Origin: Methanosarcina sp.
Lineage (GTDB): Archaea > Halobacteriota > Methanosarcinia > Methanosarcinales > Methanosarcinaceae
NCBI RefSeq assembly: GCF_028693135.1
Contig: NZ_JAQUVZ010000030.1
Coordinates: 1-43,263, forward strand
Direction of reading: 5' to 3'
Length of the DNA stretch: 43,263 nucleotides
Each line of letters opens with the position of its first letter. Position 1 is the first letter of the stretch. This document shows, in pieces, positions 31,357-35,975 of this stretch. The notes under the pieces are model-generated. The model ran no database searches. It was not told the origin of the DNA and saw nothing but the letters and a program-made list of their open reading frames with translations. The position numbers were made by a program, and so were the translations under genes.

Positions 31357-31692
31357 GTCAACTACCCCACGCTCAAGCAGTGGGGCTTGCAAAAGCCCTG
31401 GTTGACCAGCCTAAGTCTTAATTGACTACGTTGGAAATGTCATGATACCTGCGAATGCTTCCTAAGTTTGTAGCTCTATCGTGTAGCATTAAAAGTCCTG
31501 AGAGGTAGGGGCGGTGTGCTACACCTGACAAGCATATCCAACATTGGCGAGGGGAGACGGTTTTCCAAAACCGTGTTACCTGCTACGGAAATTCGTTTCC
31601 AAAGCAGAGTGGAAAAATCCAAACGTGGAACGGAATGCCGGAAAGTTGACGGCATTCCTCCCTGCGCTAAATCAACAGGGCTTCCCGCCTGT
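31357..31692 (+). mobile_element. Non-coding IS200/IS605-like element A with structured RNA core
   Basis: The left end begins GTCAACTACCCC and forms a hairpin, CCCCAC-GCTCAAGCA-GTGGGG. The right end GTTGACGGCATTCCTCCCTG, then GCTAAATCAACAGGG and CTTCCCGCC, resembles IS200/IS605-type terminal hairpins. Between them there is no protein frame, but a structured core is shared with element B 2640 bases downstream. GGAATGCC and GGCATTCC near the right end also form an 8-bp stem. It looks like a palindrome-associated non-autonomous element that a TnpA could mobilise in trans. The 31063-31356 stretch upstream holds no gene beyond a doubtful 27-codon frame. Confidence 0.6.
31430..31607 (+). ncRNA. Structured RNA core of element A (family not recognised)
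   Basis: Stems visible by eye are GTTGGA/TCCAAC (31430-31435 with 31537-31542), ATGCTT/AAGCAT (31455-31460 with 31530-31535), GTGTAGCA/TGCTACAC (31481-31488 with 31517-31524), and ACGGTTT/AAACCGT (31557-31563 with 31568-31574). The last hairpin is CTGCT..AGCAG enclosing GGAAA-TTCG-TTTCC, whose UUCG tetraloop favours an RNA role. Compared with element B, several stems keep pairing through G-U changes (GTGTAGCA with TGTTACAC, ATGCTT with AGGCAT). I do not recognise an Rfam family. The strand is inferred from the tetraloop and from the element orientation. Confidence 0.5.
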
Positions 31693-32040
31693 TACATGTG
31701 AACTTATAAGGGCATATTTTCTCCAAAATGCCGTCAGTAAAAATTCTCCCTCTTTAATATCGATCTGCCGAATCCAGGTTCAGGATTAACTCTTAATATT
31801 TTCTTTTTTAATAATCGGGTGGTCCTTGAGTGCTTGGTTGAGATGGTTAATATTATTCAGAATATCTGAACATTGTCTTCTGGATTTCTCCCCTGCGCCA
31901 TGCAGGGTTGTGACTGTCCGCTTGCCCCCTGCAAGAAAAAACTCCTGATTATGTTTGACCCAGGAACTGTCTTTTAAATTTAAATGTTATAATGTGTTCT
32001 CGTTATCCCGTCTGGGAACCTCTCCCTACGAAAAACGAAG

Positions 32041-32082: not shown

Positions 32083-32156
32083 CTTCCGGTACATTTACCA
32101 TTTTTCGATAACTGTTGGCTTAATATAAGTTCAAAACCTATATATACTTGATAAAT

Positions 32157-33413
32157 ATGAGAAAAGGAAGTTTATATAGGATTTATCCTGAACAGGGCCA
32201 AAAGCAAGTGCTTGAACAGCATTTTGGCAGTGTCCGCTTTCTCTATAATAAACTTCTTCATGTTAAATCTGTTTTATATAGTCAGTGTGGATGTAGTATC
32301 CCAAGATCAGAACTTGATAAGCATATTCTTGTCTTAAAAGATATTTATCCGTGGTTGAAGAATGTTAATTCTCAATCTTTGCAACAGGTAAACAAAAACT
32401 TAGATAATGCTTATCAACGTTTTTTTAAAGGATTGGGGGATTATCCAGCTGAAAAATTAAAGAAAAAACAACATTTCTCTTTCCAGGTTCCTCAACATTA
32501 TAAAATTAACTTAACTACGTCTGAGATATTTCTACCTATTATTGGCTGGATTAAAATCAATATACATAGACCCCTTTTTGAACCTGAATTATTTGAAACT
32601 CATCTCAAAACAACTACCATCAATAACGAAATCATAGTTGAAAAGGATCTTAATTCAGAATTCTTAAGAACTGCTACCGTTTCCAGAACATCAGCCGGAA
32701 GATACCACATTAGCATCTTAACCGAGGATCTGAATAAATATCCGGTAACTCAACAATATTCCGAATCAACTATGGTAGGTGTTGATGTTGGAATCAAGAC
32801 ATTTGCAGCCTTATCTACAGGGGAGAAAATTGAGAACCCCAAGTTTCTTAAAAAATCTATAACGAAACTTAAAATGCTACAAAAAAGAGTCCGTAGAAAG
32901 GTTAAAGGTTCTCAAAACCGGAAGAAAGCTGTTAAGAAACTTGCAAAACAACATCAATTAGTTTCAAATCAGAGAAATAATTTTCAGCACAAAGTTTCAT
33001 TGTCACTAATACGCGAAAACCAAGCAGTTGCAATTGAAACTTTAAATATAAAAGGTATGATTAAAAATCACAAATTAGCTCAAGCTGTGGCTGATTCTGC
33101 ATGGAGCAGTTTTGTAACAAAGTTGGAGTATAAGGCTCAATGGTTTGGCAAGACAATTTTGAAGATTGGAATGTTTGAACCATCTTCTAAAAATTGTCAT
33201 GTTTGCGGATACCATAATTCTGAATTAACTTTAAAGGATAGAGAATGGCTTTGTCCTTCTTGTAATACAAACCATGACAGAGATATTAATGCAGCCATCA
33301 ACATTAAACAATTTGCAATTAATAATCTAATCACCTCTGGAACAGAGGGTAGAGCCTGCGGAGTTATTCTCAAAAGAGAGAGCTGTGAAGCAGGATGCCC
33401 GTCATTTCAATGA
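32157..33413 (+). CDS. tnpB: TnpB, IS200/IS605 (IS1341-type) RNA-guided nuclease
   Basis: The ATG at 32157 yields 418 residues; the in-frame TTG three codons earlier is less likely. The RuvC motifs are intact: GVDVGIKTFAAL with the first Asp (about residue 209), AIETLNIKGM with the Glu (about 290), and NHDRDINAAINI with the third Asp. The zinc finger CHVCGYH...CPSCN is complete. TnpB uses a right-end transcribed RNA to cut DNA and maintain its element. There is no tnpA beside it. Its last codons run into the right-end hairpin, as usual. The protein is uninterrupted and so may be active. Confidence 0.95.
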   Translation: MRKGSLYRIYPEQGQKQVLEQHFGSVRFLYNKLLHVKSVLYSQCGCSIPRSELDKHILVLKDIYPWLKNVNSQSLQQVNKNLDNAYQRFFKGLGDYPAEKLKKKQHFSFQVPQHYKINLTTSEIFLPIIGWIKINIHRPLFEPELFETHLKTTTINNEIIVEKDLNSEFLRTATVSRTSAGRYHISILTEDLNKYPVTQQYSESTMVGVDVGIKTFAALSTGEKIENPKFLKKSITKLKMLQKRVRRKVKGSQNRKKAVKKLAKQHQLVSNQRNNFQHKVSLSLIRENQAVAIETLNIKGMIKNHKLAQAVADSAWSSFVTKLEYKAQWFGKTILKIGMFEPSSKNCHVCGYHNSELTLKDREWLCPSCNTNHDRDINAAINIKQFAINNLITSGTEGRACGVILKRESCEAGCPSFQ

Positions 33414-33425: not shown

Positions 33426-33993
33426 TGAATTGCTTCTGTTAGAGTTTAGAGTCTTCAAATTCAGATTAATAATAGTAAATCGTGTGAAAGTGCCAGTCAC
33501 ATTCCCGATCATTATCTTTTTTAGTTTTATATTCGCAGTTTTATTTTATTGTTAACCCCATTTGCCTGCAAGATGGATTTTTAACATGAATCATTTTAAG
33601 CAAATCTGTCCAAATATATATCTAACCACATAATATTTTTATCCTTGTTAGAAGTGGGCTTTCTGGCTAAATTCAGCTCTGTTTGCTACTTTTTGAAAGA
33701 AAAACACTTTATTCCTGCGTATCAGCTTTGCAAAAATTCTGGTTTACATATCTACAGGGCATAATCTAATACTATGACAAGAATATAACAATGTTGAGAT
33801 TAAAATCACTATTATTATTTTTAATGTGGGGATTAAACTTTAATTTTTCCTGTTTTACTCCCAGAAATCTTATTTCTCTGATAAGGAATATATACTCTTA
33901 TATAGAGCTAGACCTAAATTCTCAAAACCAGCTTTCTTCTCTTACACTGCCCTGGCTTCAAAACCGGGCTGAAGAAGCTAATAGTGTAAAGGC
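33426..33993. other. AT-rich gap between the tnpB element and element B
   Basis: No RNA gene or supported protein is visible. A 73-codon frame at 33791-34012 has no plausible ribosome binding site and runs into the left end of element B, so it is not called. The sequence may be an older chromosomal fragment between insertions. Confidence 0.4.
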
Positions 33994-34412
33994 GTCAATA
34001 ACCCCTTACTAAAGCGGGAGGCTTGTTTCGGCAAGTCTTGATTGACCAGCCTAAGTCTTAATTGACTCTATTGGATATGTTATGATACATCTGGATGCTT
34101 CCTTAGCCCACTTCCCTATCGTGTAGCATCAAAAGTCCTGAGAAGTAGAGGCGGTGTGTTACACACGGCAGGCATGTCCAACATTGGCGAGAGGAGGCGG
34201 TTTTCCAATACCGTGTTATCGGCTAAAGAAATTCGTTTCCAAAGCAGAGTGGAGAAATCCAATAAAGTGAACGTACTGCCTGAACGTGGAAGTAATGCCT
34301 GAAAGTGGAAAAATCCAACAAAGCCAACAAAGTGGAAGTAATGCCTGAAAATGGAAGTAATGCCTGAAAGTTGAAGGTATTCCTCCAGTCACTGAATTAA
34401 CGGGCATCCTAC
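33994..34412 (+). mobile_element. Non-coding IS200/IS605-like element B with structured RNA core
   Basis: The left end GTCAATAACCCC and the hairpin-like CCCTTACTAAAGCGGGAGG are degraded relatives of the end of element A. The right end GTTGAAGGTATTCCTCC, then CACTGAATTAACGGGCATCCTACC parallels that of A. Positions 34051-34260 match 31411-31620 without a gap, 175 of 210 bases identical by my count. B is longer than A because GTGGAAGTAATGCCTGAAA-type units are repeated three to four times at 34284-34374. The element ends about 20 bases before ccmD. Confidence 0.6.
34070..34247 (+). ncRNA. Structured RNA core of element B
   Basis: Pairs corresponding to element A are TTGGA/TCCAA (34071-34075 with 34177-34181), ATGCTT/AGGCAT, GTGTAGCA/TGTTACAC (34121-34128 with 34157-34164), CGGT/ACCG and GAAA-TTCG-TTTC. 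Variation relative to A falls mostly in loops or changes a pair to G-U, although the outer part of the last hairpin is weaker here. The function is unknown and the same family uncertainty applies. Confidence 0.45.
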
Positions 34413-34431
34413 CTTAGAGATCGTGATACAA

Positions 34432-34536
34432 ATGGAACCCTTCATTCTGGCGTTTGCTATCAGCTGGGCACTCATATTTGTCTACCTCCTTTCATTACTT
34501 AAGACGTATGCAGAGTTCAACAAAAGGTTAATGTAA
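34432..34536 (+). CDS. ccmD: CcmD-like small membrane protein, 34 aa
   Basis: The frame is short: MEPFILAFAISWALIFVYLL followed by SLLKTYAEFNKRLM. One membrane helix with a basic cytoplasmic tail is the CcmD layout. GTGAT lies 6 bases before the ATG. CcmD stabilises the CcmABC complex with holo-CcmE in cytochrome c maturation. It precedes ccmE by 25 bases, which is the main support for the call. ccmA, ccmB and ccmC, which usually precede ccmD, are absent and replaced by element B. Confidence 0.65.
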   Translation: MEPFILAFAISWALIFVYLLSLLKTYAEFNKRLM

Positions 34537-34561
34537 TGATCGAGCTATACGGGGTTTTAAG

Positions 34562-34942
34562 ATGAATAAAAAAAAGAAAACATTGCTTGCAGTTGCGTTT
34601 ATTGCTGGTGTGTTTATCATAGGTTTATATGGGATTGACTCTTCAGACGGATACCTTGCGGTATCTGAGCTTCTCTCTGACCCTCCGGGCTATGCCGGGC
34701 AGAATATAAATGCCATGGGGATTGTAGAGGTTGGAAGCCTTGAAAAGTCTCCTGGTATGACATCATTTGAACTGAATGATGAAAATGATGAAAATCTTAA
34801 GATACATGTGAATTATGTAGGAAACCTTCCTTCTAATCTTGCCGAAGGAAAACAGGTGACCATCAGCGGAACAATGGTTTCCGAATCTACGTTTGAGGCA
34901 AATAAGATAGTTACCGGATGTCCGTCAAAGTATACGGAGTAA
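34562..34942 (+). CDS. ccmE: CcmE haem chaperone, archaeal CxxxY type
   Basis: The 126-residue protein has an N-terminal membrane anchor (KKKTLLAVAFIAGVFIIGLYG), then an OB-like beta barrel (YLAVSELLSDPPGYAGQ, INAMGIVEVGSL, VNYVGNLPSNLAEGKQVTI), and ends GCPSKYTE. The CPSKY is a CxxxY motif in place of bacterial HxxxY, a known difference of archaeal CcmE that binds haem covalently. It delivers haem to apocytochrome c outside the membrane. It is in an apparent ccmD-ccmE operon bounded by IS-like elements B and C. Confidence 0.88.
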   Translation: MNKKKKTLLAVAFIAGVFIIGLYGIDSSDGYLAVSELLSDPPGYAGQNINAMGIVEVGSLEKSPGMTSFELNDENDENLKIHVNYVGNLPSNLAEGKQVTISGTMVSESTFEANKIVTGCPSKYTE

Positions 34943-34947
34943 TATTG

Positions 34948-35105
34948 GTCAACTACCCTGAACTAAAATTCAGATAAGTATTACCCTACGTATGTAGGTG
35001 GAGGGTGATTTATTCGCCCTCATTAAATTAATACAAAACTAATTCAATAGAGCAGGATGTGGAAGTTGACGCATTCCTCTCCTGAGCTAAACTCAGGGGT
35101 TTCCT
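34948..35105 (+). mobile_element. Short IS200/IS605-like element C without RNA core
   Basis: The left end GTCAACTACCCTGAACTAAA, then ATTCAGATAAG and the right end GTTGACGCATTCCTCTCC, then TGAGCTAAACTCAGGGGTTTCC match the ends of element A. The inside is about 100 bases and lacks the RNA core, but includes two small inverted repeats (CCTAC-GTAT-GTAGG, GAGGG...CCCTC). It starts 5 bases after ccmE and ends 12 bases before the polyprenyl synthase gene. Confidence 0.55.
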
Positions 35106-35117
35106 GCTGAGGGCTTT

Positions 35118-35975
35118 ATGAATATTGAAGAATGGGAAGAATACGGATATGTAGAAGCCGGGATAGAGGACTCGATTTCCCGAATAGAGGAATCCGGCTT
35201 AAAAAAAATGGTTGAACATGTCTGTCATTCAGGGGGAAAACGAATTCGGCCAATTATCCTGCTTCTGGTCAGCGAGATTTGTTCAGGCTCATATTCCCGG
35301 AGCCTTAATGCAGCCCTTGCTGTTGAAATGATGCACTCGGCTTCCTTAATTCATGATGACCTGCTGGATCAGGGGCTTATCCGGAGGAACCTTCCTTCTG
35401 CTCCTGAAAAATTCGGACCTTCCAGAGCACTGCTCTGTGGGGATTATCTTATCGCAAAATCAATTGCGTTCATTTCTCCTTATGGGGAAAAGGTAATTCG
35501 AGATTTCGGAAAGGCAGGAATGGATATGGCGGAAGGAGAAGTCCTTGACCTGAGGCTTGATGACGATAACTTCGGAGAAAGCGACTATTTTAAGTGTATC
35601 TATAAGAAGACAGCTTCTCTATTCGCAATCAGTGCATCCATTGGTGCTTATGCCGGAGGAGCAGACGAGACTCTTGCGGAGCGTTTTAGCTTCTTTGGGA
35701 ATTCCCTGGGAACCGCATACCAGATTGTTGATGACATCCTTGAATTTCTGGAAGTTGTTGAGGGCAAGGAATCTAAATTTACGTCTGAAACCCTGCCGCA
35801 CATTTACATGAGGGACATGTCAAAGGAAGACGCATTAGAAAAGTCCATAGATTCTGTAAAGCTGCATGTTAGTGCCGCAAAGGAAACCCTTAGAACATTC
35901 CGAGAGTGTCCAGCAAGGGATAAGCTTTTCCAGATAACTGATTATATAACTATAGACATGCTTGAAAATGTCTGA
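35118..35975 (+). CDS. Polyprenyl (geranylgeranyl-type) diphosphate synthase
   Basis: The 285-residue enzyme shows GKRIRPIILLLVSEI, the first Asp-rich motif HDDLLDQG (about residues 81-88), GDYLIAKSIAF and the second Asp-rich motif QIVDDILEF (about 205-213). It condenses isopentenyl units to make a long prenyl diphosphate, the precursor for archaeal lipids or quinone-type side chains. Chain length cannot be judged. The length is shorter than the about 320 usual for IdsA, mostly at the N-terminus. It sits just after element C, so its native promoter region may have been replaced. Confidence 0.88.
   Translation: MNIEEWEEYGYVEAGIEDSISRIEESGLKKMVEHVCHSGGKRIRPIILLLVSEICSGSYSRSLNAALAVEMMHSASLIHDDLLDQGLIRRNLPSAPEKFGPSRALLCGDYLIAKSIAFISPYGEKVIRDFGKAGMDMAEGEVLDLRLDDDNFGESDYFKCIYKKTASLFAISASIGAYAGGADETLAERFSFFGNSLGTAYQIVDDILEFLEVVEGKESKFTSETLPHIYMRDMSKEDALEKSIDSVKLHVSAAKETLRTFRECPARDKLFQITDYITIDMLENV

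Follow-up and report, generated by a model that had tools for sequence, protein, structure and literature searches.

An ancestral ccmD-ccmE operon that continues into the gene for geranylfarnesyl diphosphate synthase (GFPPS), and that has received two late insertions of IscB-family elements, is very probably what is seen in this Methanosarcina genome, with the 34-amino acid open reading frame (ORF) just upstream of ccmE coding for a CcmD-family protein. CcmD is a known family and its presence in methanogens contradicts what has been printed. The window, by which we mean the whole stretch of 43,263 nucleotides that was analysed, belongs to a genome assembled into 89 contigs with a total of 4.22 Mb and the features of the locus are given in Table 1.

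Table 1. Features of the window in and around the ccmD-ccmE locus
Feature	Position	Strand	Remarks
Element A	31357-31697	+	HEARO element without ORF, Rfam 158.6 bits; GTGA comes next
TnpB-type gene	32148-33413		421 aa; separate from elements A and B
AT-rich promoter-like box AATATATACTCTTATATAG	33887-33905	+	Conserved; putative promoter
Element B	33994-34422	+	IscB-family, without ORF; HEARO/omega RNA at 33994-34202; followed by GTGA
ccmD	34432-34536	+	34 aa, single hydrophobic helix, TIGR04391
ccmE	34562-34942	+	Heme chaperone of the C-x3-Y type (CPSKY); PF03100, 62.2 bits
Element C	34948-35117	+	IscB-element ends, without HEARO match; right-end GAGG precedes the GFPPS start codon
GFPPS gene	35118-35975	+	NF040627, 620.1 bits, cut-off 600
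Radical SAM gene			Downstream of the GFPPS gene

The ccmD ORF reads MEPFILAFAISWALIFVYLLSLLKTYAEFNKRLM. Calling it ccmD was the most consequential part of the earlier note, which had been made from the letters of the DNA, and the call stands: the ORF scored 35.4 bits against the NCBIfam model TIGR04391 (CcmD_alt_fam; cut-off 24) and 33.6 bits when the genome was scanned, and in three members of the genus the scores were 35.4, 35.3, and 45.6 bits. TIGR04391 being NCBI's own model, we presume that NCBI's annotation may well name archaeal ccmD. Like the proteins described by this model, which has 36 positions, the predicted protein has one hydrophobic helix (a 19-residue window from residue 5 has a Kyte-Doolittle mean of 2.5) followed by a basic tail, and its gene lies just before ccmE. 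The basic residues come after the helix and, judged by charge, the protein would have its N-terminus outside and its C-terminus inside. It differs from bacterial CcmD, which has 69 amino acids (PMC9084895, as far as available to us), in having only 34, in its archaeal host, and in having ccmABC at another locus. The models of classical CcmD did not recognize it. Neither of the Pfam models, CcmD (PF04995) and CcmD_alt (PF20077), matched the window ORF; with PF04995 the better of two relatives reached 15 bits (cut-off 25.6), and with TIGR03141 two other archaeal ORFs reached 13.6 and 14.5 bits (cut-off 25.95). PF20077 was dropped, its sub-cut-off matches being found in 21 of the 30 genomes of the genus and none of them at the ccmE locus.

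The genus set consisted of these 30 genomes, in which ccmE is intact and full-length in 9, broken or partial in 18, and without a match in 3; the 18 loci with a broken or partly matched ccmE (L011-L028) are in many states of decay. The ccmD ORF is intact in all nine genomes that have an intact ccmE, and no intact ccmD was seen where ccmE is broken, as far as the locus was readable, which was so in 16 of the 18 genomes but not in G024 and G021; intactness was assessed by eye and with a pattern anchored at the start. In G023 the 34-codon frame is open, its middle is scrambled, and TIGR04391 does not match it. Over 36 pairs the pN/pS of ccmD is 0.22, as compared with 0.64 and 1.56 for the remaining two frames; the variation by codon position, 12/8/20, is not significant by itself (p 0.06). 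The ORF therefore has the family score and the position of ccmD, is under purifying selection, and is lost together with ccmE.

In the phylum TIGR04391 was matched above the cut-off in 61 of 392 genomes, all 61 being among the 152 that have ccmE and none among the 240 that do not (Fisher p 9e-30, a generous value since genomes related by descent were counted singly). The 64 hits comprise 51 within 600 bp of ccmE, 4 within 10 kb, one that is 413 kb away, and 8 on contigs without ccmE among the matches listed. At lower scores 15 further hits adjoin ccmE, and 16 ccmE-negative genomes also have sub-threshold hits. No match above the cut-off was obtained in 91 of the 152 ccmE-positive genomes, some of which have weaker adjacent hits, and many ccmE-positive genomes outside the Methanosarcinaceae are without a clear hit. 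Within the Methanosarcinaceae a hit adjoins ccmE in 50 of 54 ccmE-positive genomes, some of these hits being below the cut-off; the four exceptions are G023, which is decayed, and G154, G280, and G306, which have no adjacent hit. Among 14 control genomes the model matched four, M. acetivorans among them, with one match above the cut-off; the remaining three of these four have no ccmE match, and there was no TIGR04391 match in four ccmE-bearing controls (E. coli, Caulobacter, Thermus, and Deinobacterium). When 12 genomes were tested one by one, seven were above the cut-off, one of five that are archaeal and six of seven that are bacterial by their titles.

At four loci in another family of the phylum (L086, L090, L099, and L102) ORFs of 41 to 50 amino acids with the pattern YW--LL--F-WLNRRL lie just before ccmE and are possibly divergent forms of CcmD; the one at L086 scored 14.1 bits with TIGR04391, which is below the cut-off of 24. 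The ccmE matches at L088, L090, L094-L096, L099, L101, L103, and L104, all from one family, have one stop codon each, which probably just marks where the gene ends within the matched stretch, the CPSKY motif still being in the ORFs.

A profile was made from 14 archaeal ccmD copies, 7 from the genus and 7 from loci that had been found by TIGR04391, so that it provides a partly independent test, and was run on 4927 small ORFs at 80 named ccmE loci, of which 5 have archaeal titles. Nine of the 11 top hits end within 150 nt upstream of ccmE against a background of 91 in 4927 (p 9e-15), with single scores being weak and only the best hit having an E value below 0.001. On a Hydrothermarchaeota contig (L266) a similar ORF was seen by eye 85 nt before ccmE. 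These results bear on the possibility that the 34-amino acid ORF, which would then lie before ccmE by chance, is a leader or a small membrane protein that has no relation to CcmD. The ORF is very short, the Pfam models miss it, and the reconstitution of cytochrome c maturation in M. barkeri works without a listed ccmD (PMC9084895, in its available part). Nevertheless, we consider this explanation improbable: every one of the 61 genomes above the cut-off bears ccmE, the archaeal profile retrieves bacterial ORFs upstream of ccmE, and the TIGR04391 hit is 2-9 kb from ccmE, and is thus not just a leader, in four genomes that belong to other families.

The order ccmD-ccmE-GFPPS is collinear in all nine genomes of the genus with an intact ccmE, seven of which have neither element. 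The site of element B is empty in G001, G007, G009, G010, G011, G020, and G022; in G008 B is inserted at the identical base, and it is otherwise absent from the nine. Element C is private to its own genome and its flanks are directly joined in the other eight. Since the sites are empty and the order is shared in these relatives, the elements came late within the genus. The earlier note had allowed either that the elements entered beside a gene pair already in place, which is now borne out, or that the pair was moved as cargo, and had named beforehand, as the outcome that would speak against a mobile setting, an order conserved across Methanosarcina genomes without the elements. This is the order that was found, and of the adjacent elements that the note proposed to look for in relatives B recurs in G008 only and C in none of the other eight. 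That ccmD and ccmE arrived as cargo between two element ends is suggested by the two elements with related ends that flank the pair in the same orientation as had been noted, both on the + strand, and by the position of ccmABC elsewhere, ccmB and ccmC being on a separate contig (G000:C88). It is extremely improbable, however, given the seven relatives with the same order and empty sites, the presence of B alone in G008, and the fact that B and C occupy separate sites, each cleanly joined to its flanks and each bounded by a left and a right end of its own. Thus, the cargo idea falls and B and C are ordinary late insertions around an ancestral operon.

The empty sites also set the ends of the elements. 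Element B ends 9 bases ahead of the ccmD start, so that it is close to ccmD as the earlier note had said, but not about 20 bases away. Element C begins 5 bases past the ccmE stop, exactly as had been described, and its end is at 35117 and not at 35105, with the start codon of the GFPPS gene following immediately. The promoter-like box is 115-120 nt upstream of ccmD in six relatives that lack B, whereas here the distance is 545 nt because B intervenes, and in G008 it is 478 nt; the box pattern was matched in eight of the nine intact genomes and is off by one base in G010. In the relatives the GFPPS start follows the ccmE stop after 4-5 bases, and the GGAG upstream of it falls inside the last part of ccmE. 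In the window, element C splits ccmE from the GFPPS gene and supplies CTGAGGGCTTT ahead of the ATG.

Elements A and B score above the gathering threshold of 83 bits for the Rfam family HEARO (RF02033), B with 106.3 bits and A in the high-scoring class, and HEARO is the omega RNA of IscB (PMC9755519, in its available part). The Rfam scan gave no HEARO match in element C, which keeps only both ends, akin to those of A and B. An IscB ORF (RRXRR plus HNH), as expected of an autonomous IscB element, was found in none of the three, but the copy between ccmB and ccmC encodes IscB. There are 45 HEARO matches in the genome and 13 RRXRR matches of the IscB type, 2 of them partial; one RRXRR copy that was tested is IscB (NF040563, 444.6 bits, cut-off 175). 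By size, 10 of the 45 elements have the full IscB length (about 1590-1650 bases), 33 are short, and 2 run off contig ends. The left end is GTCAA in 42 of 43 readable elements, the exception being L182 with GTCGG, and RTGA directly follows 42 of the 43 whose right end is readable, the exception being L054 with GGGA. These right ends were mostly derived from pairwise matches among copies, which extend into the shared RTGA; independent proof of the right junction from empty sites is available for B, C, and the ccmB-ccmC copy. HEARO reportedly integrates before ATGA or GTGA (Weinberg, in 2009). The right junctions here conform to NTGA, which in the available part of PMC9581776 is the target-adjacent motif of one IsrB, with TTGA at 60 C and with NTG or NTGG for other orthologues. 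The elements are therefore like the HEARO/IscB (OMEGA) family in their left-end omega RNA, in the RTGA at the right flank, and in having IscB copies in the same genome, and they differ from it in that A and B are without an IscB gene and C is also without a HEARO match.

HEARO matches above the cut-off occur in 10 of the 30 genomes of the genus, with 45 counted here and at least 54 in G008, where 54 of 157 candidates were scored; there was no match in the 14 controls, which include M. acetivorans. From relatives 20 HEARO loci were fetched; in 13 of them a right end could be placed, but with a pattern in which RTGA was already required, and therefore these 13 are not counted as evidence for RTGA. 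No description of these HEARO/IscB elements in Methanosarcina was found in the literature covered on such elements, namely the available parts of PMC12558985, PMC9755519, and PMC9581776.

We propose that B and C inserted immediately before RTGA tetramers, as nearly all the readable HEARO elements of this genome appear to have done, B in front of GTGATA, a few bases upstream of ccmD, and C directly in front of the ATGA with which the GFPPS gene starts. Neither ccmD nor ccmE was carried by the elements. As B parts the conserved promoter-like box from ccmD, its omega RNA would now be transcribed from that promoter, the ccmD leader serving as the guide. As C brings GAGG at its right end, this GAGG may serve as the ribosome-binding sequence and translation of GFPPS is plausibly kept. 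More tentatively, IscB-family elements here could use translation starts as landing pads, which seems to us possible but rather doubtful. The target motif ATGA would be a start codon plus A, the GAGG carried at the right end of one class would let the element enter a tight junction such as that between ccmE and GFPPS, and a host promoter would be taken for the guide RNA while the downstream gene is still translated. Of the 32 ATGA-type insertions 12 directly adjoin an ORF of 99 codons or more, with 4 of 12 in relatives and 8 of 20 in this genome, where the 20 are 19 HEARO copies and C, and the eight, each with an ORF of at least 100 codons, are C, L057, L059, L060, L171, L176, L180, and L182. 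Compared with an expected 16% the probability is about 0.003, which is post hoc and depends on a rough null, for which ORFs were called mechanically in about 117 kb. Among GTGA-type insertions, 2 of 23 adjoin a GTG frame with at least 100 codons.

The remaining ccm genes are dispersed. Between ccmB and ccmC on contig C88 there is a full IscB element (reverse-strand coordinates 7885-9470 of L166) that is absent from G008, G001, and G010, and a second HEARO element on L166 (from 4235, reverse-strand) lies upstream of ccmA, directly before the start of a lipoprotein-like gene. The ccmA gene, which is an open frame, was assigned by sequence and position, and a CcmF-type gene is on contig C62. Full-length ccmB is found in the same nine genomes as intact ccmE and in addition in G026, a genome listed as 60% complete in which ccmE was not found. 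According to the available part of PMC9084895, separation of ccmABC from ccmE, a dispersed layout, and repeated loss of ccm are usual in Methanosarcina. A preference of IscB elements for ccm loci (2 HEARO elements in about 4 kb, Poisson 0.0009) was post hoc and was not used. It could be argued that the insertions mark decay of the ccm system in this species, as in many relatives without ccmE, for in 18 of the 30 genomes ccmE is matched only in broken or partial form and three IscB-family insertions (B, C, and the ccmB-ccmC copy) lie inside two ccm loci in addition to the HEARO element upstream of ccmA. We regard this as unlikely, because ccmA, ccmB, ccmC, ccmD, ccmE, and the CcmF-type gene are open frames and the insertions are intergenic and in the same orientation. 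In addition, a frame of 507 codons containing 5 CxxCH motifs lies ahead of an rnf gene, and its product is a likely client of the ccm system.

CcmD would be the one-helix subunit expected in the CcmABC heme exporter, where it would help to load or release holo-CcmE. The 2022 eLife paper (PMC9084895, in the part available) states that ccmD is uniformly absent in archaea, offers archaeal membranes as a plausible reason for this absence, and reports that M. barkeri Fusaro, a strain stated to encode no ccm genes, needs no more than ccmABCEF1F2 from M. acetivorans to mature MmcA. Thus, CcmD is not strictly needed under over-expression unless the ccmE fragment that was used carried the ccmD ORF. In view of this reconstitution without a listed ccmD and of the many ccmE-positive genomes without a clear hit, we infer the role of CcmD in the CcmABC complex. 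The system described here resembles the streamlined Ccm of M. acetivorans in its dispersed ccmABC, ccmE-GFPPS, and ccmF loci, in its C-x3-Y type ccmE, and in its loss from many relatives; it differs in that the same paper, as far as available, says that there is no ccmD, whereas the same genus has ccmD directly upstream of ccmE. We found no report of a methanogen ccmD in the literature covered on archaeal ccmD, namely the available parts of PMC9084895, PMC10903887, PMC10849945, and PMC12077264, and the term ccmD is absent from the main text of PMC4429474 and PMC9012536. The absence of CcmD is one of the grounds for the published view that archaea have a cytochrome c maturation machinery of their own, and a conserved CcmD in Methanosarcina, in the rest of its family, and in some further families of this phylum would do away with that difference. 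The elements, in turn, suggest how IscB-type elements can sit in operons without destroying them.
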